Source of the DNA: a bacterium
GTDB taxonomy: Bacteria > UBP15 > UBA6099 > JAJRTR01
NCBI GenBank assembly: GCA_024278215.1
Contig: JAJRTR010000086.1
Coordinates: 1-27,919 of the forward strand
Reading direction: 5' to 3'
Length of the DNA: 27,919 nucleotides
In this document: positions 15,425 through 27,919 of the stretch, piece by piece
Layout of the letters: every line of letters begins with the position of its first letter
Position numbering within the stretch: the stretch's first letter is position 1
Program-made: the position numbers and the translations under genes
Notes under the pieces: model-generated
What the model saw: only the letters and a program-made list of their open reading frames with translations
What the model was told of the DNA's origin: nothing
The model's database searches: none

Positions 15425-15863
15425 TCTCTATCCCTCATATTTCACAAACGCAGTTTCAATAATCGTAAGATCCAATTGCAAAATTATGTTCGTAGCGAGG
15501 TCGAGCGAAATTGTTCAGAGCAAGGCGGAGGTGTAAAATCCTCGCAGGCGTACTTGTAGAGTACGTCGAGGACGATTTCGCGCCGACAACGCAGCTACGG
15601 ACAATAGCAGCCGACCGCAGCAGAATCAGAATATTGCAATTGGCTCGTAAGAACGCCTGTGGTACAAGGCGCGGCAAGTGAGAAGTGGGGGAGCAACTGT
15701 AAGTATATGTTCGATCCCGAATCGCCGTCGCAACGCAGTAAAGTAGGCGTCCGGGAAGATTTTCCGGATTTCTTCTTCGAGAAAGAAATACGGGCTATCC
15801 TTATTCAATTCGCCCAAGGCTTTCTCGTAACGATCCCTGGTTCGGTAATGTACGATAAAGAGA
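15425..15863. other. Convergent intergenic region with repeat copy A
   Basis: This 439-bp gap separates nuoN (+) and the PorV/PorQ-like gene (-), which converge. The left part is the palindromic repeat at 15469-15646. The rest (15650-15860) has an open frame on the minus strand (a TTG-started 63-codon stretch with an upstream extension) whose protein has no family signature and whose end runs into the repeat. I treat it as non-coding or a decayed remnant. Confidence 0.5.
15469..15646 (-). repeat. ~178-bp palindromic dispersed repeat, copy A
   Basis: This copy is inverted relative to copies B (26148-26326) and C (27745-27919). It has terminal inverted repeats around CCAATTGCAA. The inner nested hairpin reads, on the minus strand, CCTCG ACGTACT ctaca AGTACGC ct GCGAGG. 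It lies exactly between two convergent genes. I see no transposase ORF inside, so it is a MITE-like or structured non-autonomous element. Confidence 0.8.
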
Positions 15864-16829
15864 TTACAGATTAAGTGTGTAGGACAGGAAGTGTGCGTCC
15901 TGAAAGAGGGTAATGTCGCGGTCGCCGGAGACTGAAGGTAGAAAATTTTTTATTATTGCGTAATCGAGCCGGAGTGATCCGAAACGCGCACCGCCGCCAT
16001 AGGTGGCCATGCCGTTCATGCTGCCGGTGCGCAGATATATCCTGTCGTCGAACGCGCGTTCGACGCCCGCAAACCATCGCAAGTCGACTCCCGATCTGAA
16101 ACCAAACTCGATATCCGCCGCGGCGAGTGTATCCGCTTTCGGGTCGGCCCTGTAGGCCGCGCCCACAGTTAACTTGAGGCCGGCGGCTCTTTTCTTTTCG
16201 CCCTCGCCCGGTTTGAATAGCCGGGACAGGCCGCGCACATTTATACCATACGACATGCCGCTGCCGGTTTCGTAGTAGAAGCTGAAACCGCCGCCTGTCT
16301 GAAACTCCTGCCTCGCCGCGATGTTTTCTCCCGTGTGGCGGTACCAGTTCGAGTCGAGGTATCCGGCGGAAGTATGCCTGATTCCCTGTCTCAAGTCGGC
16401 GAGTGCCGCGCGCCGTTCACGGCCCCTGTAGCGTTCCTTTTTCTTTATGACATTGTTTGTATCCATGTAATCTATACCCCACTCGCCTGGTACAGTGAAC
16501 CCGAGCCCGAGGACCGTGTCGCCCCGAAGAGGAATGGTAATACCGGTAGTGTCGGAGTCCAGTTGATCGAGATTTTTTCTTTCGCCGGGGAAGTGTCGGA
16601 GGCTATGATTGCCGGAGATGGCGAGGCGGTTGGAGCGCAGGGCGGCGGAAGGGTTCCAGAACATGCCGATGGGGTCGCCGCCCACGGCAGTGAACGCGCC
16701 GCCCATGCCGACGGGCCGGGGCGCGGTTTTCAAAAGGTAGTCGGCTGCCGTGTCAGACAGGGCAAGTGCCGCGAGTGGGAAAAACAGGACGGTTAAAACC
16801 GCCGGGATTATGAACCTCCAGGGTCTCAT
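15864..16829 (-). CDS. PorV/PorQ-like outer-membrane beta-barrel protein
   Basis: A 321-residue exported protein. A signal peptide covers about residues 1-24 (FIIPAVLTVLFFPLAALALS). Then comes the hallmark segment of the PorV/PorQ/UPF0164 group, APRPVGMGGAFTAVGGDPIGMFWNPSA (36-62), where a conserved glycine-rich loop precedes a FadL-like barrel. The rest alternates hydrophobic and polar residues as beta-strands would and ends in an aromatic-poor strand (FLSYTLNL). Its outer-membrane location is inference from this pattern. The ATG overlaps the ELM1-family stop as TAATG, so the two genes are coupled. In Bacteroidetes, PorV/PorQ relatives serve type IX secretion, but nothing here shows that system. 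Confidence 0.7.
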   Translation of the reverse strand: MRPWRFIIPAVLTVLFFPLAALALSDTAADYLLKTAPRPVGMGGAFTAVGGDPIGMFWNPSAALRSNRLAISGNHSLRHFPGERKNLDQLDSDTTGITIPLRGDTVLGLGFTVPGEWGIDYMDTNNVIKKKERYRGRERRAALADLRQGIRHTSAGYLDSNWYRHTGENIAARQEFQTGGGFSFYYETGSGMSYGINVRGLSRLFKPGEGEKKRAAGLKLTVGAAYRADPKADTLAAADIEFGFRSGVDLRWFAGVERAFDDRIYLRTGSMNGMATYGGGARFGSLRLDYAIIKNFLPSVSGDRDITLFQDAHFLSYTLNL

Positions 16830-17980
16830 TATTCCCGCATTGCCCCTTTTCCCGGTGGTGAACCGAAGAATCGCCGCTCGATCTCGAGCGCGACTTTTCT
16901 GGATTCATCCAGTGGTTTGAAACCGCGCTGCCTGCGCCGCAGCACGGCTGTAACATTCTGGTTCAGTTCCTCGATTGTCGTGTATGTTATGTAGTCCTCT
17001 GCCATGAGATCTTCGAAAAGTTTCTCGAATTTATTTCTTTTTCGTTTTTTACCGACTTTGATGACAACGGCGTACTTGCCTCCCGATATGATTTCCGAGA
17101 CCATCGAAACGCTGTCTTCCGTGACGAGCACTATCTCGCTGAGTCCGATGATGCCCGGCACAGGGTTTTCGGAGTCTTCGGACGCGAGCAGAAGGTAGGC
17201 GTTGGCCGGGTGGTCTTCGAGCAGCTCTTTCACCTTTTTTTCAGCTTAAGGCGTAGTACGCCGCGAGGTTGTGGTGAGCAGGGAAAGGTCGTTTTCCTCG
17301 CAGAGCAGAAGCACCTCCTGCATGAGTTCCTCCGCAAGCGCGGCGTTTATGTAGTTCAGTGAACTGTCACCACCGATGAGCAGGCCCAGCGGACGGTTTA
17401 CATCGCCGCGAAGCCTGGGGTACAGCGTTACCGCTTCCGCGAAAATGAAACCCTCAGAGATATGGCTTGTCGCTCCCATTGTGTAAATAATGTTGTCGCC
17501 CTTGCATTTATCCTGATCGTGTCGCGGTGCCACAACGAGATCGAAATCATTTGTCGACAGCATCGAAGGCCTCATGCAGACGACAGTCCTGGAGCCCCAT
17601 ATCCTGCTGAGCAGATACGTTACAGGGTGTGTGAGAGAGCCAGCGCTGATAATGAGGTCCGGCGAAAATTTCAACAGGCTCGTCATCGGCGCGTTTGTTA
17701 TCCGTTGTATCCAGAACAGGATAAGAGGTTGCGAAAAATTGATGCGCCGCGCAAGAAACGATACGAAAACAAGAAACAAGTAGTACGGCTTGCTTATTTT
17801 TATCTCGATCTTTTTGCCGATTACGTTTCGCAGCTTGCGGACAACACCCTCGGTCTGGTGTATATGCCCCCTCTTACCGTCACTGACGATAAGTATACGC
17901 TTTTTCACTTTCGGCGGTCTTCTGTCCGGGTACATTTTTCGGCTCTTTTCAACAAAAGCACTTTTGAGAGCTATTAACAT
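16829..17980 (-). pseudogene. ELM1-family (DUF1022) protein, split by in-frame TAA
   Basis: Two frames, 17980-17246 and 17233-16829, are in the same phase and joined through a single TAA at 17248-17246. Together they give a ~383-residue member of the bacterial family annotated as mitochondrial fission ELM1-like, a glycosyltransferase-B-like fold. Visible motifs are ILIVSDGKRGHIHQTEG (about 28-44), PDLIISAGSLTHPV, FDLVVAPRHDQD, LGLLIGGDSSLN and LLTTTSRRTTP before the stop. AEKKVKELL, IGLSEIVLVTEDSVSMVSE and SGGKYAVVIKVG follow it. Relatives usually read P-E-A at the break, so GAA to TAA (one G-to-T change) explains it. The C-terminal piece holds a conserved loop, so truncation should inactivate it. 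A promoter lies at 18030-18058 and the stop overlaps the next gene. Confidence 0.82.
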
Positions 17981-18217: not shown

Positions 18218-19282
18218 TTAAAATGAAGGTGAATAAACCATTATCCTGTCATCGGGGCCGGTTCCCGAAAGTACGGCGGCGCGACCGCTTTTGTTTGTGA
18301 AGAGAGTTTCCACTTCGTTGGGATTCACATAGAGTGCCGAATCGAACACGACGACTCCGACACCGAGATTGATGTCTTCTTCCTCGAACGCGCCGCCCGG
18401 TTCCAAACCCTTGCGGCCTATCATGGCATGTGATGAGAGAATCTCCGGGTCGGGCTCTGTGAGCGAACCGAAAGAATGCAGTGCATCCGCGGCGGCCTGC
18501 GGGAAGAAGACTCCGGGACCGATGTTGACAGCGGCGGCGATGAATGTACCCGGCGGCAGGTTATTCAGAAACTCCGCCATCTTGTAGCCTGCTTCAGGGT
18601 CCACGAACATATTGAAACCCCTCGATGATTCCACGCCATTCCCTCCGGGAGAAAAGGAAACGATATGATAACCGGAACTGTTCTTCGAATACTTTACTCC
18701 ATCAACATATATACCGAAGTATCCATTCCAGGCCCCCGAAGACAGCACAAAAACAGTGTGGTTCAACATGTCGGAAAACGGACTCTTCCCGACAGCGCCT
18801 TCCATCAGGTAGAACTCAAAGCCTGCCGTGCGCAGCAGCATGTAAGCCTCATAAAGAGTTTTGCCGGAAACAGCAGGGATAATACCGCTCGCTTCCGCCT
18901 CAGCCACAGACGTATCCGTCCAGCCCACAGGGGGGAGCCCCGCCGATTTTTCCGACTGTGCCGATGCTTCGATATAAATTCTTATACTCGATGCTTTTGC
19001 GCCGTTGTCCACAAGCCAGGAAAAGAGTTGCTTATTAGTGCCCGGTCTGTCGGGTGTGGCTCCAAGTTTTTCTGTAATTGTTATGAGGTCGGCTTCAATA
19101 GATTCAATGACGATCAGGCCGTCGGATGTCCTGATTGTGAGGGTTCTCCGTTCCTGTTTTTGCGCGTTGCCGGCAGGCACTGGTTCTGCAACGGCGGAAG
19201 CGGTGAAAACAAGAACCGACAAGAGGACAATCCATACAACCGGCATACATTTTATACTTCCGTCATATCGAAATACACTCAC
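18218..19282 (-). CDS. Exported ILEI-domain (FAM3/PANDER-like) protein
   Basis: A 354-residue protein with a signal peptide (about 14-33; VVWIVLLSVLVFTASAVAE). Its second half matches the interleukin-like EMT inducer (ILEI) domain known from animal FAM3 cytokines and from O-linked glycan enzymes and bacterial envelope proteins. The match runs from FVLSSGAWNGYFGIYVDGV (178-196) through SSRGFNMFVDP (219-229), MAEFLNNLPPGTFIAAAV (235-252) and ALHSFGS (267-273) to SHAMIGRKGLEPGGAF (284-299). The first half (about 45-165) is not recognised. The GTG start overlaps the upstream stop as GTGA and has AGGAG 7 nt upstream. It is the last gene of the lptD-like operon. The ILEI assignment is by motif reading; the biochemical role is unknown. 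Confidence 0.72.
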   Translation of the reverse strand: MSVFRYDGSIKCMPVVWIVLLSVLVFTASAVAEPVPAGNAQKQERRTLTIRTSDGLIVIESIEADLITITEKLGATPDRPGTNKQLFSWLVDNGAKASSIRIYIEASAQSEKSAGLPPVGWTDTSVAEAEASGIIPAVSGKTLYEAYMLLRTAGFEFYLMEGAVGKSPFSDMLNHTVFVLSSGAWNGYFGIYVDGVKYSKNSSGYHIVSFSPGGNGVESSRGFNMFVDPEAGYKMAEFLNNLPPGTFIAAAVNIGPGVFFPQAAADALHSFGSLTEPDPEILSSHAMIGRKGLEPGGAFEEEDINLGVGVVVFDSALYVNPNEVETLFTNKSGRAAVLSGTGPDDRIMVYSPSF

Positions 19283-20868
19283 AGGTATCTCCTTATGCTG
19301 ATGCCGAATCCGGGGCGGAAAACCCTGCTCTTGACAGTCTCGATGTACAACTCGATGGGGAAATCGTATTTCCAGATACGCATGAATTTCGATAGTCCGA
19401 TCTTCACGCTTCGCCCGTAAACCGCGCCATCACCCTCGCGTGAATAATCGAGGTCGATGAAAATGGAATCGAGATCAAATCTCGCGAGCGGGTCCTTAGG
19501 ATCGAAGTAATTTCTCGTTCGCATGAAAGAGACGAAAAAACTTTCCCACAGTGGGTCGGTGGGCTCGCCCGTTATGTCCATGAAGTCATTGTTGTATCTT
19601 AGAAAAATAAGATAGTCGCGCCCTATTCCGAGGTTGAGATCTACACCGCCTTCCATCCATGAATTGCTGCCTCTTCCGATTACCTGGATATTAGCTTCGC
19701 CCGAAAATATATATTTACTCCCCGACCACCCCTTACGATTCTTCCCCAGTTGCGTTACCAGCAGAAAGTCCGTATTAAAATAATCGTCTATCTCTCCCTC
19801 GTCATTGAAGTCCTGTACCTTCAGGTTGCCGAACCTTCCCTTGTAATATGTGCGTTCGTTTCCGCCTTCAAGCCTGTACTGGTATCCGAACCGGTCTACC
19901 TTCATAGCAAAGCCCGAGTGCCCCGACGGATTCACCACCTCGATACCTTCATATCGCGTGATAAACCTGCTTTCCTGTGCGCCGAAGCCGAGTTCCACAT
20001 GAGTTGTTCCTTTTACAATCCGGTCTATGTTGCCGACGTTCGCATAAAACCTGTTGTCGTCGTGGACCAGGTTGAAGCCGAAGCGGGAACTGTGCAGATC
20101 ATTTATGTGGTCAAGCCGCCACTTGCTTTTCACATCCCCGCTCAGCCGCTGATTCTTCGTCACTCCCACAGTGCGCTTGTCGAATTTCTCGAAAAGATTC
20201 TCGACTATCAGGCTCCACTTGAAATCCTCCTGTCTGCCGAAAAAGAATGTACCGTCCAGGTCGCGCCTGTTTGTACGGTTGAGAATATCTTTGAATTTCA
20301 GGTATGCCAGACCTTCGTATTTAATATCCGCCACAAGGCCTTCGGTGGATGAGTTGTCTATATCCACCTGCGCTTTTTTAGTTATCTTCGGCACCACCTG
20401 AATCATCAGGTGTCTCTTGCTTCCGCCGAAGTCCGGGTGGATGCTGCCTGTTATCGGTATCGAAAACGGGATGGAAAGAAAGACCCTCTTGGGCGGAATT
20501 TTGACTTTCGCCTCGTTGCCTTCAGGTGTGATCAGGCGAAGCGTGACACCCCGCGCGAGGCTCTTGTCTTCGATCAGCACCGGAATAACTATTGTTTCTT
20601 CCGATTCCCGTGCCGCTTTCACGATTCCGACTTTCGCCGACCTGGCCGTGCCCCCAACTTCGAGTTCGAGCACATCGCCGGGGCTCACTTTACCTTTGTG
20701 CTGTATGAAACCCGGCATACCGTCAATCGACACCGCGAATCCCGCGTTAACCTGTTCCGGTGTTGCCGTGAAAACAACAGTTTCGTCTTCGCAAAACGCA
20801 ATAATCGGCAACACGAACAACCAGCACATAATATGCAACAGAAACACTATGCTGGTTCGTGTTCTCAT
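19279..20868 (-). CDS. Predicted outer-membrane beta-barrel protein, unknown function
   Basis: About 529 residues from the ATG at 20868, which opens a good signal peptide (MRTRTSIVFLLHIMCWLFVL, then PIIAFCEDE). An upstream ATG at 20949 would add 27 hydrophilic residues; it sits 3 nt after the previous stop and cannot be excluded. An N-terminal soluble beta-rich domain (about 30-145) precedes a long region of alternating strands (YYKGRFGNLKVQDF, DYLIFLRYNNDFMDI, IFIDLDYSREGDGAVYGRSV). The C-terminus (FGISIRRYL) is typical of barrel proteins. No family name is recognised. It sits between a small exported protein and the ILEI protein, with a 4-nt overlap to the latter, suggesting they act together in the envelope. 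Confidence 0.65.
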   Translation of the reverse strand: MRTRTSIVFLLHIMCWLFVLPIIAFCEDETVVFTATPEQVNAGFAVSIDGMPGFIQHKGKVSPGDVLELEVGGTARSAKVGIVKAARESEETIVIPVLIEDKSLARGVTLRLITPEGNEAKVKIPPKRVFLSIPFSIPITGSIHPDFGGSKRHLMIQVVPKITKKAQVDIDNSSTEGLVADIKYEGLAYLKFKDILNRTNRRDLDGTFFFGRQEDFKWSLIVENLFEKFDKRTVGVTKNQRLSGDVKSKWRLDHINDLHSSRFGFNLVHDDNRFYANVGNIDRIVKGTTHVELGFGAQESRFITRYEGIEVVNPSGHSGFAMKVDRFGYQYRLEGGNERTYYKGRFGNLKVQDFNDEGEIDDYFNTDFLLVTQLGKNRKGWSGSKYIFSGEANIQVIGRGSNSWMEGGVDLNLGIGRDYLIFLRYNNDFMDITGEPTDPLWESFFVSFMRTRNYFDPKDPLARFDLDSIFIDLDYSREGDGAVYGRSVKIGLSKFMRIWKYDFPIELYIETVKSRVFRPGFGISIRRYL

Positions 20869-20952
20869 ATAAATGTTACAACTCGTTTCTCGATGCCGAC
20901 CCCATTCGTCGGACTGATTCCCCGTTTCCGCAGTCCGCAGGTCTTCCATTAT

Positions 20953-21489
20953 CTATTCATACATCTCATAAATAATTATCTCTGAAAAAGGCTCGGTATT
21001 TGTTAGAATCACAATCGTACCCTCTGAAAGATACAACATTCTGCCGCGTTCCTGTTCCGACATTTTCTCCATTTCACTACTTGAGAGCGTTTTGAAACCG
21101 AACACCGTCAACACCCTGTCGGCACGTGACGCATCCAGGCCCTCGACAGGCGGAATGATGCCCCTTAGAACAGCCTCCCGGAGCGGCAGCACAGTCGTCT
21201 TGTAAACCTCGGACATGTCGGAGACGCCCGGCAGTACGAAAACTTCATATTTAATGTCGTTGCCAAATCTGTTCTTAATCAGTTCGATAAAATCATCAGC
21301 TGTTTCTATTCCCTTGAAACCCTCGTGTTTCATCGTTTCAATTTCATCGAGAATTTTTGTGTCCGCATAAAGGAGAACCGCGCGACCGTCCAGTTCCACA
21401 GTCATGGATTCAGGCTCACCGGCCGATACACGGGCTGCACAGCAGACAACGATTATAAATAATAAGGAAATGTACAGAACTCTTCTCAA
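20953..21489 (-). CDS. Small exported protein of unknown function
   Basis: 178 residues with an N-terminal signal peptide (VLYISLLFIIVVCCAARVSA, likely cut before GEPES). The mature part is mixed alpha/beta and acidic, ending in FSEIIIYEMYE. No family is recognised. The start is a TTG at 21489 with GGAG 8 nt upstream inside the previous gene's end; the gap is 3 nt, so it is translationally coupled. It ends with TAG. It is predicted periplasmic and probably a helper of the beta-barrel protein encoded next. Confidence 0.6.
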   Translation of the reverse strand: MRRVLYISLLFIIVVCCAARVSAGEPESMTVELDGRAVLLYADTKILDEIETMKHEGFKGIETADDFIELIKNRFGNDIKYEVFVLPGVSDMSEVYKTTVLPLREAVLRGIIPPVEGLDASRADRVLTVFGFKTLSSSEMEKMSEQERGRMLYLSEGTIVILTNTEPFSEIIIYEMYE

Positions 21490-21492
21490 TAT

Positions 21493-21777
21493 TCACTTCT
21501 CCCCGGTATTCTCTTCGCCGTCAGACATCGCAGATGCCTCATCGACCAGGTTTTTGCCCTCAATGATGTCTGCAAGCAATTCTGCATATTCAGTAGATAA
21601 TTCCTCGATATATGCTTCAAGATCGAAAGGATTGTGCAACTCGTCTTCCCTGTCGCGCAGCTCTGTAAGCCGTGCTTCGACTTCGGCGGGAACAGGCCGA
21701 TCATGGTAGAACGTATTTATCCATTTTTTTGTATTCAGGAACAGCCGGGCGCGCAACGGCAGCGCCTGCAAATTCAT
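21493..21777 (-). CDS. Small soluble protein of unknown function
   Basis: 94 residues without a signal peptide, acidic and likely helical (AEVEARLTELRDREDELH; AYIEELSTEYAELLADIIEG), so a short coiled-coil is possible. The gene is kept because it sits exactly between two genes with 3-nt gaps on each side, in the same direction, with AGGA just before its ATG. No family is recognised. Confidence 0.55.
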   Translation of the reverse strand: MNLQALPLRARLFLNTKKWINTFYHDRPVPAEVEARLTELRDREDELHNPFDLEAYIEELSTEYAELLADIIEGKNLVDEASAMSDGEENTGEK

Positions 21778-21780
21778 TTC

Positions 21781-22239
21781 CTAACTCCGGATGCAATACC
21801 ACAGTTCCAATAATGACTCGGATTTCTCCGCCTCCGGTTTCAGGTTATAAATATCCACAAGGCGGCGTCTGAAAAACAGAGTGTCGCCATGGCCGTTTCC
21901 GGAAGCGGCGACGTTCAGATAATCGGCGAAAACATTGCCGAGCATAACAAGCGAATTTTGATATTCGTGTGTCAGGTGATCCAGAAGCAGGTCGTGGTTC
22001 TGGAGCATGTCCTGATAAATGGTGTGCTGCGGGAACATTACGGGATTGGGTTTCAGGCGCCCCCTGCTGACTCGTGTCAACTCCGTTTGCTGGAGCCTCA
22101 TAACCGCTCTGGTCACCGCAATACTGTTGACCTGTGTCAGATTAACCTTATCGTCTCCCGCTGTTGTTTCGGCGCACAGGACCGACACGCCGACAGCGAT
22201 GAAAGCTAACGTGAGCAATGTAAAAAAAGCTTTTTTCAA
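21781..22239 (-). CDS. Small exported protein of unknown function, coupled to lptD
   Basis: 152 residues from a TTG at 22239 that overlaps the lptD-like stop as TTGA, with AGGA 7 nt upstream. This start gives an ideal signal peptide (LKKAFFTLLTLAFIAVGVSV, cut near LCAETTA). A longer frame reaching ATG at 22326 would bury this peptide and overlap lptD by 91 nt, so I reject it. The mature part looks helical (SIAVTRAVMRLQQTELTRVS; LLLDHLTHEYQNSLVMLGNV). No family is recognised. It is predicted periplasmic and could be a small partner of the LptD-like protein. Confidence 0.6.
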   Translation of the reverse strand: MKKAFFTLLTLAFIAVGVSVLCAETTAGDDKVNLTQVNSIAVTRAVMRLQQTELTRVSRGRLKPNPVMFPQHTIYQDMLQNHDLLLDHLTHEYQNSLVMLGNVFADYLNVAASGNGHGDTLFFRRRLVDIYNLKPEAEKSESLLELWYCIRS

Positions 22240-23693
22240 TTTGCATTCCTGCCGGGTACTTTTATCTGCATTCTCAACCCGATACTTCTTTGTTCCGCTC
22301 TCCATGACAATATGAATTTCAGACACTCCCAGTGCCGCACGAAACCATAAACGATTTCGTCGAATTCCGAGTTTTCGACATCATATTGCGCGTCGATCAT
22401 GATGCGGTTTCTCCTGCTCAGCTTTATTACATTGTAGTAGAAAAGCTTCTCATTTGTATCGACCAGGTCTGAATACAGCGGTGTCGAGCCTTCGTAGCGG
22501 AACGACATATACTGGAGTCTGAAGAAAGCATCCTCCGGGTCTCCTGTCGCTGCTTCGAGCCCCGAACCCCATATCCGGTATTTCCTGAAGTTTGTATAAA
22601 TAGCATATCTGCCGTCGCCGAGTACAGCATATTTGATTTTCCCTTTATTATTCAAGGGATACCTGGCGTCGAAGTTGAGAAAAGCACGGTCGAGCGGTTT
22701 GCGCAACTGTGCTTCCTTTATTCTGCCGATCTCGAGGCTCGTGCCGACTATCAGTTTTGTATCCTGAAACCTGCCTGCTGTTTTCGAAATGTGCAAAGTC
22801 GGCAGATTCCACACCTGGACGGGATCGAAGTACCTGAAATATCCAGTGTTCTCCTTATACTGTTTGCCGAGCCGGACAGTCATATCGTAATCTCCGAGCG
22901 TCTGCCTCAGACGCGCTTCGGAAAAAAGACCGTCGTTGGCGTAGTAGTTCATGTAAAACCCGAGGTCTCTGCCCCTGTTCATTTTTCTGGTCGCGTCGGC
23001 TTTAAGCTCCACTCCTCCGTAATCCGCGTAGCCAAGCGAAGGAGGCGAGAAACTCCATGCGCCGACATCCATTCCCGATTTCCGGACGCCCGTACCGAAA
23101 AGCATAGTCGAGTACGAAGGCCATTTCAGGATTTTGTGGCCCTTCAAATAAAATGATAGTTTGTGGAATTTTGCTTTGCCGTCGGGTTGTATGCCGACAC
23201 TCCTGGCTTCGACATAGTACTCTTTGTTTTCCATACAGCATGTTGTCGCGATTACATCTCTCATCAACATGCTTCCATCAGGCCGAATCTCCATTTCGGA
23301 AGCCGCGAAATTTGTGCCTTCCATGCTGGCCTTAACATCTTTCATCGAGCCGAGTTCCTTATCGTAATCGTAACTGAAAGAAGCGCCTGTAAAAACGAGT
23401 TCCCCAATATGCAATTTAAAATAATCGTCGGTGCTTGCCCGGTTTTCCTTGCTGTTGATCTCGAAGTTGTTCGCATCAATGACGAAATGCCTGAATTCTA
23501 TATGTACACTTCCCGACGCTTCATACACGCCCCGGCTTTCGTTGTAATGGAAACTGTCGGCTTCCAGACTCAGGGCGCCGCCCTCTTCAAGTGTTTCGAT
23601 AAAGTCGCCTTCTAAAGATGTCCGGCCATAAGCTGTTGATGAAATTACCCATAATGTCAAAAGCAGTAAAGCAAAAACTGTGAATCTTGTCAT
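22236..23693 (-). CDS. lptD: LptD/OstA-like LPS transport protein
   Basis: A 485-residue exported protein. A signal peptide spans about 1-23 (FTVFALLLLTLWVISSTAYG). An N-terminal OstA/LptA-type jelly-roll follows (about 38-150: ALSLEADSFHYNESRGVYEA, SGSVHIEF, LHIGELVFTGASFSYD, EMEIRPDGSMLMRDVIATTC). Then comes a barrel domain with many strand-like segments (GRDLGFYMNYYAND, KAKFHKLSFYLKG). LptD inserts lipopolysaccharide into the outer leaflet. This one is much shorter than the ~780-residue proteobacterial protein but within the range of short LptD-like proteins in other phyla. An adjacent CC pair (ATTCC) may matter for disulfides. It heads a six-gene operon with a promoter at 23723-23752. Symbol assigned by domain order, not by full alignment. 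Confidence 0.7.
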   Translation of the reverse strand: MTRFTVFALLLLTLWVISSTAYGRTSLEGDFIETLEEGGALSLEADSFHYNESRGVYEASGSVHIEFRHFVIDANNFEINSKENRASTDDYFKLHIGELVFTGASFSYDYDKELGSMKDVKASMEGTNFAASEMEIRPDGSMLMRDVIATTCCMENKEYYVEARSVGIQPDGKAKFHKLSFYLKGHKILKWPSYSTMLFGTGVRKSGMDVGAWSFSPPSLGYADYGGVELKADATRKMNRGRDLGFYMNYYANDGLFSEARLRQTLGDYDMTVRLGKQYKENTGYFRYFDPVQVWNLPTLHISKTAGRFQDTKLIVGTSLEIGRIKEAQLRKPLDRAFLNFDARYPLNNKGKIKYAVLGDGRYAIYTNFRKYRIWGSGLEAATGDPEDAFFRLQYMSFRYEGSTPLYSDLVDTNEKLFYYNVIKLSRRNRIMIDAQYDVENSEFDEIVYGFVRHWECLKFILSWRAEQRSIGLRMQIKVPGRNAN

Positions 23694-23971: not shown

Positions 23972-24535
23972 TCAATAAACCGTATAAGACGGCGGATCGA
24001 CGCTGTCAATCGAAACGGGGACACGACCGGGTTTGCCGATGTAATCGGAGTAACTCGACCATGGATAATCCTCAGCGAATTCCACCAGTCCTTTTTTTAC
24101 AGGATTGTTGTGCAGCTTTTCGAGATGCTCGATAAATGAATCATAGTCGGTGATGTCCTCGTCATAGAACCGCCTGCGCCACACCTTGCGTGAAAAATCC
24201 CTCGCGATCTTTATCTTCTGGCCGGTGTACGTTTTGAAGTTGCTCACAAACCTCGAGATCGTCCACTCGACAGGCCGCATAAGAAGATGAATATGATTGG
24301 GCATAACAACATAACCGTTGATTATAATATGTCCGTTTTCAATGTGGTGCGTCAAAGAGCGGCACAGGATTTCGTTAACTTCATCGGTTAAGAAAACCGC
24401 CCTCTTCCTGTACGTGAAGATGGTAATCATTTTACAGCCGATAAAGGGTGGCTCATTTTCATAATTAAATTCGTTTTCACGATCATCTTCATTTTCCATA
24501 TCAAACTTGTTTTCGTGTTCAGTCGAATCCGGCAT
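23972..24535 (-). mobile_element. REP-associated (RAYT/Y1, IS200-like) transposase
   Basis: 187 residues. The HUH single-strand nuclease motif is plain: VVMPNHIHLLM with H81 and H83, preceded by IENGHIIINGY. The likely catalytic tyrosine is Y103 in NFKTYTGQKI. The C-terminal signature HNNPVKKGLV with PWSSYSDY (about 142-163) is typical of the domesticated RAYT branch. It would nick and join single-stranded REP hairpins. No flanking terminal repeats mark it as a self-mobile IS, in keeping with single-copy RAYTs. The first ~30 residues are unusual: a Glu/Asn/Asp-rich low-complexity tail (HENKFDMENEDDRENE). If this tail is not translated, the start would be a later codon. A repeat end-fragment lies 42 bp upstream. 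Confidence 0.88.
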
Positions 24536-24576: not shown

Positions 24577-24628
24577 CTGTTGACAATTGCAGCCGACCGC
24601 AGCCGAATCAGAATTTTGCAATTGACTC
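24577..24628 (-). repeat. End fragment of the ~178-bp repeat (copy D)
   Basis: About 52 bp match the first end of copy C when inverted, running from CTGTTGACAATTGCAGCCGA to the terminal inverted repeat TTTTGCAATTGACTC. The remaining ~120 bp are absent. It lies between the RAYT and the tRNA-Ser promoter. Confidence 0.75.
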
Positions 24629-25974: not shown

Positions 25975-26019
25975 AAATTTCGCTCGACCTTGTTACAAAC
26001 ATAGTTTTGCAATTGGCTC
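25975..26019 (+). repeat. End fragment of the ~178-bp repeat (copy E)
   Basis: About 45 bp match the second end of copies A to C, from AAATTTCGCTCGACCT to the terminal repeat TTTTGCAATTGGCTC. It lies in the leader of the sigma-factor gene, about 130 bp before copy B. Confidence 0.75.
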
Positions 26020-26023
26020 TTAT

Positions 26024-26051
26024 ATTATAACTTAACTTATGCGTTTGTAAG
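26024..26051 (-). promoter_or_regulatory. Possible promoter of the sigma-factor gene
   Basis: On the minus strand, CTTACA (26051-26046), a 16-bp spacer and a perfect TATAAT (26029-26024). The resulting ~110-nt leader would carry repeat fragment E. Confidence 0.45.
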
Positions 26052-26071
26052 ATTTTCAGTCGGAATTATAA

Positions 26072-26114
26072 GGGACATAACCGGCATTTGCCATTTGATT
26101 CCGGACCGTGTCCC
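26072..26114. repeat. Imperfect GGGACA/TGTCCC stem-loop
   Basis: GGGACATAACCGG (26072-26084) can pair with CCGGACCGTGTCCC (26101-26114) with a small bulge and a 16-nt loop. No second copy is clear in the window, so its nature is unresolved. Confidence 0.35.
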
Positions 26115-26147
26115 CGGAAATCCGCTCCATAAAAACATCCGTTTAAT

Positions 26148-26326
26148 GAGCCAATTGCAAAATTCTGATTCTGCTGCAGTCGGCTGCTATTGTCCATAGC
26201 TGCGTTGTCGGCGCGAAATCGTCCTCGACGTACTCGGCGAGTACGCTTGCGGGGATTTTGCACCTCCGCCTTGCTTCTGAAAAATTCCGTTAGACCTCGC
26301 TACGAACATAATTTTGCAATTGGTTC
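26148..26326 (+). repeat. ~178-bp palindromic dispersed repeat, copy B
   Basis: The element is complete from GAGCCAATTGCAAAATT to AATTTTGCAATTGGTTC. The terminal inverted repeats pair over about 15 bp. The central hairpin CGTACTC-ggc-GAGTACG is at about 26229-26245. It lies between the terminator of the cold-shock gene and the sigma promoter. Confidence 0.85.
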
Positions 26327-27744: not shown

Positions 27745-27919
27745 GAGCCAATTGCAAAATTCTGATTCGGCTGCGGTCGGCTGCAATTGTCAACAGCTGC
27801 ATTGTCGGCACAAAATCTTCCTCGACGTACTCTACAAGTACGCCTGCGGGGATTTTGCACATCCGCTTTGCTTTAGTCCAATTTCGCTCGACCTCGCTTC
27901 GAACATAATTTTGCAACTG
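27745..27919 (+). repeat. ~178-bp palindromic dispersed repeat, copy C
   Basis: It starts with GAGCCAATTGCAAAATT and runs to the window edge at TTTTGCAACTG, so only the last few bases may be missing. It is in the same orientation as copy B. The central hairpin CGTACT-ctaca-AGTACG is preserved although the surrounding sequence differs at many positions from copies A and B. Confidence 0.85.

Follow-up and report, generated by a model that had tools for sequence, protein, structure and literature searches.

A conserved gene block of the phylum UBP15 encodes a shortened LptD paralog, a KdoT-family protein, and a set of exported proteins

A real and conserved operon for envelope proteins lies on the minus strand of the window, by which we mean the whole 27,919-nucleotide (27.9-kb) contig analyzed here. 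The draft genome to which it belongs (G000, from the uncultured candidate phylum UBP15) comprises 207 contigs and 4.55 Mb. The first gene of the operon, A, encodes an LptD-type protein that is shorter than the genome's normal LptD and additional to it, and the genes BC, D, E, and F that follow form a conserved, co-inherited set. We tentatively propose, at somewhat less than an even chance, that the block is a UBP15 envelope module that helps with the final stages in which LPS/LOS, or a glycolipid closely related to it, is built or displayed at the outer membrane. The preliminary description had suggested a dedicated outer-membrane assembly or glycolipid system made of six genes behind one promoter. 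The conserved block, the LptD type of A, and a KdoT-family ELM1 protein agree with such a system, whereas the single promoter found no support and the six genes are five.

Organization and conservation of the gene block

Based on the ORF map, the genes are tightly coupled on the minus strand as described, except that two of the six, B and C, are parts of one gene, which leaves five. A (22236–23693) encodes a 485-residue LptD paralog, or "mini-LptD", with a signal peptide, a β-taco (residues ~39–197), and a barrel (residues ~220–481). BC (21493–22239) encodes a protein with a signal peptide, D (20953–21489) a 178-residue exported protein with an IPPVEGL...GF motif, E (19279–20868) an exported protein with an N-terminal domain and a probable outer-membrane barrel, and F (18218–19282) a protein with a signal peptide, a D-type domain, and an ILEI/FAM3 domain. 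When all products were searched against Pfam and NCBIfam, BC, D, and E matched no family. A overlaps B by 4 nt (TTGA) and E overlaps F by 4 nt (GTGA), and the B/C, C/D, and D/E gaps read from the ORF list are 3 nt each; the D/E gap counts from the first ATG of the E ORF at 20949, whereas the start of E supported by homology is the ATG at 20868. The ELM1 gene (16829–17980) and a gene for a PorV/PorQ-like exported probable barrel (15864–16829) come next on the same strand. The latter protein scores 27.9 bits against the NCBIfam PorV cut-off of 90 and is PorV-like only. The block ends at this gene, which faces the nuo genes. A promoter scan returned 11 promoter-like sites against 9.2 expected, which is chance level; the minus-strand stretch immediately ahead of A had none.

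Six other UBP15 genomes, all of the same taxonomic order as the window genome, were compared. In four of them (G003–G006), tblastn and ORF maps show the order A-BC-D-E-F-ELM1-PorV, and in G002 A-BC-D-E stand in the same order, with the contig ending inside E. Because the order is kept in five genomes, a chance arrangement is ruled out. Wherever a relative has these genes, they travel together, and the ELM1-PorV pair, adjoining in the window and four relatives, extends the operon, as the preliminary description had thought possible. Identity of the relatives' proteins to those of the window is ~37–38% for A, 31–35% for BC, 28–34% for D, ~52–53% for E, 35–36% for F, and 65–71% for ELM1. The sixth genome, G001 (78% complete), gave no match to the operon of A or to D or E; LpxC was likewise not found there, so that absence of the operon from this genome is not proven. 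Among named records, gene E is carried by UBP15 and by further uncultured MAGs, such as UBA6099 and ADurb.Bin236.

In the relatives, genes for a PEMT/ICMT-like methyltransferase, for GT4 enzymes, and for a member of the GT9 (heptosyltransferase) family lie downstream of PorV. In the window genome, the glycosyltransferase cluster does not adjoin the block, and what is conserved there is the core block only. Tandem, fused-looking GT4 ORFs were observed in the relatives' cluster 3' of PorV (L012:12318-14498 and L011:11522-13781). Additionally, an SLH-domain protein, OmpM-like by size and context, is encoded directly upstream of A in f3 relatives (L010:10503-12164, L012:2387-4048, and L013:4580-6238); the homolog in the window genome lies on another contig (L111) and not beside the operon.

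BC is a single ORF of 223–256 residues in five of five relatives (L010–L014). In the window, B (21781–22239) and C (21493–21777) share one frame and are parted by a TAG (21781–21783, minus strand), which aligns to Ser without an indel, and the homology of BC crosses the TAG site and extends to the second phylum described below. C is therefore not a gene of its own, which explains why C alone has no signal peptide. Similarly, ELM1 is a single 367-residue ORF in the relatives, and the window copy is cut by a TAA (17246–17248, minus strand). Across 61 gene-level matches (~630 kb of the window genome against ~676 kb of relatives), the only credible in-frame stops are those in BC and ELM1; two further flagged cases trace to the end of an alignment and to an ORF extended in the wrong frame. 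TAG/TAA recoding was set aside because the ~60 compared genes contain no other credible in-frame stop, and a split of BC into two functional proteins was discarded, since the second of them would have no signal peptide. Re-initiation could yield two fragments, with the second half of BC remaining in the cytoplasm.

That both stops fall within one block suggests local decay, and the module may be decaying in this genome. It is a tenable possibility, although we lean against it, that the operon is degenerating here, the stops in BC and ELM1 having made the system non-functional and A, D, E, and F being on the way out. The confinement of the credible stops to this block argues for such degeneration. 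However, A, D, E, F, and PorV are intact and free of frameshifts, ELM1 retains 69% identity across 359 residues through its stop, and the assembly is a MAG, in which the stops could instead be base errors or the product of strain mixture. Degeneration in this genome is compatible with any function in the relatives.

The LptD paralog and the KdoT-family protein

The earlier assignment of A as LptD-like was borne out by profile and by fold. In an hhalign comparison, A matched a profile of the phylum's own LptD over residues 17–231 (probability 98.4, E 8e-15), and against PDB sequences LptD ranked first (E 2.5e-7), with LptA at E 3e-4. The AlphaFold2 model of A is only fair (pLDDT 66, pTM 0.44) and has ~15 barrel strands; its 15 best Foldseek matches are all LptD, with Z up to 17.9 against LptD and about 11 against LptA/LptC. 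The Pfam LptD barrel (PF04453) has no match in A. This domain matches no gene in the phylum, true LptDs included, and is thus not decisive for A; homology to the LptD of L015 served as the LptD marker instead.

As in LptD, a β-taco is joined to a barrel in A, Cys residues lie in the N-domain and at the C-terminus, sequence likeness extends over the N-terminal ~230 residues, and the overall folds are alike. In contrast, LptD has about 760 residues, whereas the 485 residues of A leave too little for 26 strands, and the barrel of A is about half the size. When the barrel of A (residues 220–481) was compared alone with 16-strand exopolysaccharide barrels, it superposed on PgaA (Z 14.5, rmsd 4.0), PelB (Z 13.6), and BcsC (Z 13.2), with rmsd 4.0–4.4 across the three. 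In the model, the barrel is nearer in size to these than to the 26-strand LptD and also resembles them in shape; A differs from them in the β-taco ahead of the barrel and in that no synthase genes were recognized with it.

Cys152, in an [ST]TC motif, and Cys457, near the C-terminus, are invariant in six of six A sequences. Their positions correspond to sites of the LptD interdomain disulfides, which in E. coli are C31–C724 and C173–C725 (PMC12644819). The full-length LptDs of the phylum have two Cys at each of these places, whereas A has one invariant Cys on each side and so lacks the two disulfide pairs of LptD. Toward the C-terminus, A aligns only weakly with LptD (E 0.019).

A scan of genome contigs with the single sequence of A gave no match. 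The separate full-length lptD that the preliminary description had asked about was found at G000:C107:14793-16925, after an LptF/G-like gene. LpxC is present in the window genome and five relatives. Since the genome has its own full-length LptD as well as LpxC, A is additional to the normal pathway and not a replacement for it; unlike that LptD, A is set among uncharacterized genes. No LptE-like sequence was recognized as a partner of A. Directly after the full-length LptD, a conserved putative lipoprotein with no Pfam match is a candidate LptE of the phylum (L040:8956-9639, L015:6233-6949, and L016:8688-9401). Moreover, L017:1-2124 encodes a 708-residue protein with repeated LptC/LptA-type (OstA) segments that runs off its contig, a candidate for an unusually long periplasmic bridge.

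The ELM1 gene provides a further link to LPS. In A. baumannii, A1S_2903, an "ELM1-like mitochondrial fission protein", is needed for core LOS (PMC10936431); in vitro it is KdoT, a CMP-Kdo transferase acting on Kdo2-lipid IVA, and its SRRT motif is important for activity (PMC12856342). The window ELM1 reads TTTSRRTTP at this motif (SRRT at 17255–17266, minus strand, shortly before the TAA), and TTTSRRT is found in the relatives too. The GT-B family PF06258 matched the full-length protein of a relative at 3.7e-56 and the two window halves at 3.8e-28 and 3.4e-16. ELM1 is a member of the KdoT family with the key motif, and CMP-Kdo transfer to Kdo2-lipid A is predicted from its sequence. It shares with A1S_2903 the ELM1 family, the SRRT motif, and, in the relatives, an LPS-core-type gene context, and differs in that the window copy is split by a stop codon and its activity is a prediction. 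We found no literature report of KdoT in an operon with outer-membrane proteins. Collectively, the family of ELM1 and the glycosyltransferase neighbors in the relatives strengthen the link to an LPS glycolipid, and the relatives' gene context favors LPS/LOS.

BC, D, E, and F and their occurrence in a second phylum

The domain that makes up D recurs as the N-terminal part of F (hhalign E 3e-8), and a profile of D matches F at 8.6e-6. An initial impression of D as a PASTA domain came from the sequence only and was dropped, no profile supporting it. For E, the AlphaFold2 model was unusable (pLDDT 37), a simple amphipathicity test gave no clear barrel signal, and PDB sequences gave no credible match; a second outer-membrane barrel is plausible. 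The ILEI domain of F (PF15711, residues 204–292) scores 39.2 bits against a cut-off of 27, and the best PDB matches of F are the POMGnT1 stem (5ggj) and FAM3 (FAM3B). In POMGnT1, Arg129, Asp179, and Arg207 bind GlcNAc (PMC9802357). A chain-numbering offset of 86 brings Arg129, Asp179, and Arg207 onto matching residue types in the PDB alignment; the residues of F aligned to them all differ, and the triad is absent. F differs further from POMGnT1 and FAM3 in being an exported bacterial protein that combines this domain with a D-type domain. That F binds sugar is a guess from its fold.

Profile searches traced the set beyond UBP15. Among 386 sampled genomes, the E profile matched nine, of which six belong to UBP15 and three to a single distant genus, and the D profile matched the same nine; neither D nor E was found in about 320 other sampled genera. 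With the combined profile used around the distant genus, four genomes of that genus and two of UBP15 matched among 385, and nothing else. We take this genus to be probably Thermodesulfobium; its genome has 1,898,865 bp. BC-D-E adjoin there in the same order as in UBP15, and cross-phylum profile comparisons gave E-values of 5e-18 for gene E, 3e-10 for D, and 2e-6 for BC. F is unlinked to them (L168:9973-11037), and this ortholog matches the ILEI domain (2e-11; PF15711, 44.7 bits) and the UBP15 F profile (6e-11).

LpxC is present in the distant genus, and the genes seen beside BC-D-E include none that is LptD-like. A copper-amine-oxidase-N protein is encoded upstream of BC, and heptose-type genes (PfkB and cytidylyltransferase families) lie ~5–7 kb from BC-D-E. 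Small ExbD-like and ExbB/MotA-like genes, whose Pfam matches are below the cut-offs, were also observed upstream (L142:13053-13845). Furthermore, both phyla have an IMP dehydrogenase-like gene, GuaB3-type by eye, that lies upstream of the BC-D-E genes by a few kb (L010:17352-18512 and L142:16185-17339), hinting at an old common neighborhood.

Because BC-D-E-F occur in the second phylum with no neighboring A, "an LptD operon" is too simple a description of the system, whose core function may be distinct from the insertion of LPS as such. We infer that BC-D-E-F are an ancient core shared by two phyla and that A is a UBP15 addition. The core function may be a neighboring step, such as quality control, lipid modification, or tethering.

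Possible functions of the module

The tentatively favored reading is that of an accessory station for the assembly of LPS/LOS, or a related glycolipid, at the outer membrane, a function we infer from the genes and their context. In this scheme, the lipid A inner core would receive Kdo from the KdoT-like enzyme while still in the cytoplasm, and the ordinary Lpt bridge would then export the glycolipid. The β-taco of A might accept this glycolipid or a subset thereof, and the small barrel of A might place or modify it at the outer membrane, working with E as a second barrel and with BC, D, and F in the periplasm. Counting against LPS assembly are the second phylum, where no A-like neighbor was seen and F is unlinked, the missing ILEI triad, the size of the A barrel, the modest quality of the A model and its weak C-terminal match to LptD, the distance of the glycosyltransferase cluster from the block in the window genome, and the two broken genes in this genome.

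A somewhat unlikely alternative takes the core as its starting point. BC-D-E-F would be an undescribed outer-membrane assembly system of deep-branching diderms, at least UBP15 and the Thermodesulfobium-like lineage, possibly energized by the PMF through the ExbB/ExbD-like proteins in the latter, and UBP15 would have recruited the miniature LptD and the Kdo transferase for a modified or second LPS-type glycolipid.

The superposition of the A barrel on PgaA, PelB, and BcsC, the ILEI-type domain of F, and the glycosyltransferases nearby in the relatives would also suit an exopolysaccharide or capsule exporter, in which A and E form the outer-membrane pore, BC, D, and F act as periplasmic scaffold and glycan handlers, and the β-taco is a borrowed adaptor. 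We consider this unlikely, because no polysaccharide synthase, polymerase, or flippase was recognized in the block, the BC-D-E genes of the second phylum stand beside no synthase, LptD ranks first among matches to the whole of A, and the β-taco and cysteines point to a lipid A-type cargo.

Equally doubtful is a module for assembling or tethering outer-membrane proteins or the surface layer of an SLH-type envelope, for example by folding or anchoring barrels, for which the LPS link would be positional only. The OmpM-like SLH-domain gene upstream of A in the f3 relatives, the PorV-like barrel within the block, and the copper-amine-oxidase-N and ExbB/ExbD-like genes before BC-D-E in the second phylum are consistent with it. 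However, the SLH gene of the window genome does not adjoin the operon, the ExbB/ExbD matches fall under the Pfam cut-offs, and the KdoT-family enzyme is co-conserved in UBP15.

The insertion of LPS is regarded as the work of a single LptDE complex. If the accessory-station reading is true, a second, shortened LptD would mean that some bacteria split or extend the last insertion step. This shortened LptD is kept in most sampled genomes of the phylum and is encoded with uncharacterized exported proteins and a KdoT-type enzyme. Moreover, BC, D, and E, families new here and common to two distant diderm phyla, mark unexplored ground in outer-membrane biogenesis. If the second lineage is Thermodesulfobium, some of its members are in culture, which would open the core to direct experiment.

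Finally, the window contains seven copies of a TTTTGCAATTGRYTC-type repeat against 0.36 expected, some of them oppositely oriented (15469–15646, 24614–24628, 26005–26326, and 27745–27759). A Y1/IS200-type transposase gene (PF01797) lies in the same window at 23972–24535, and together the repeats and this gene look like a member of the REP/RAYT family.
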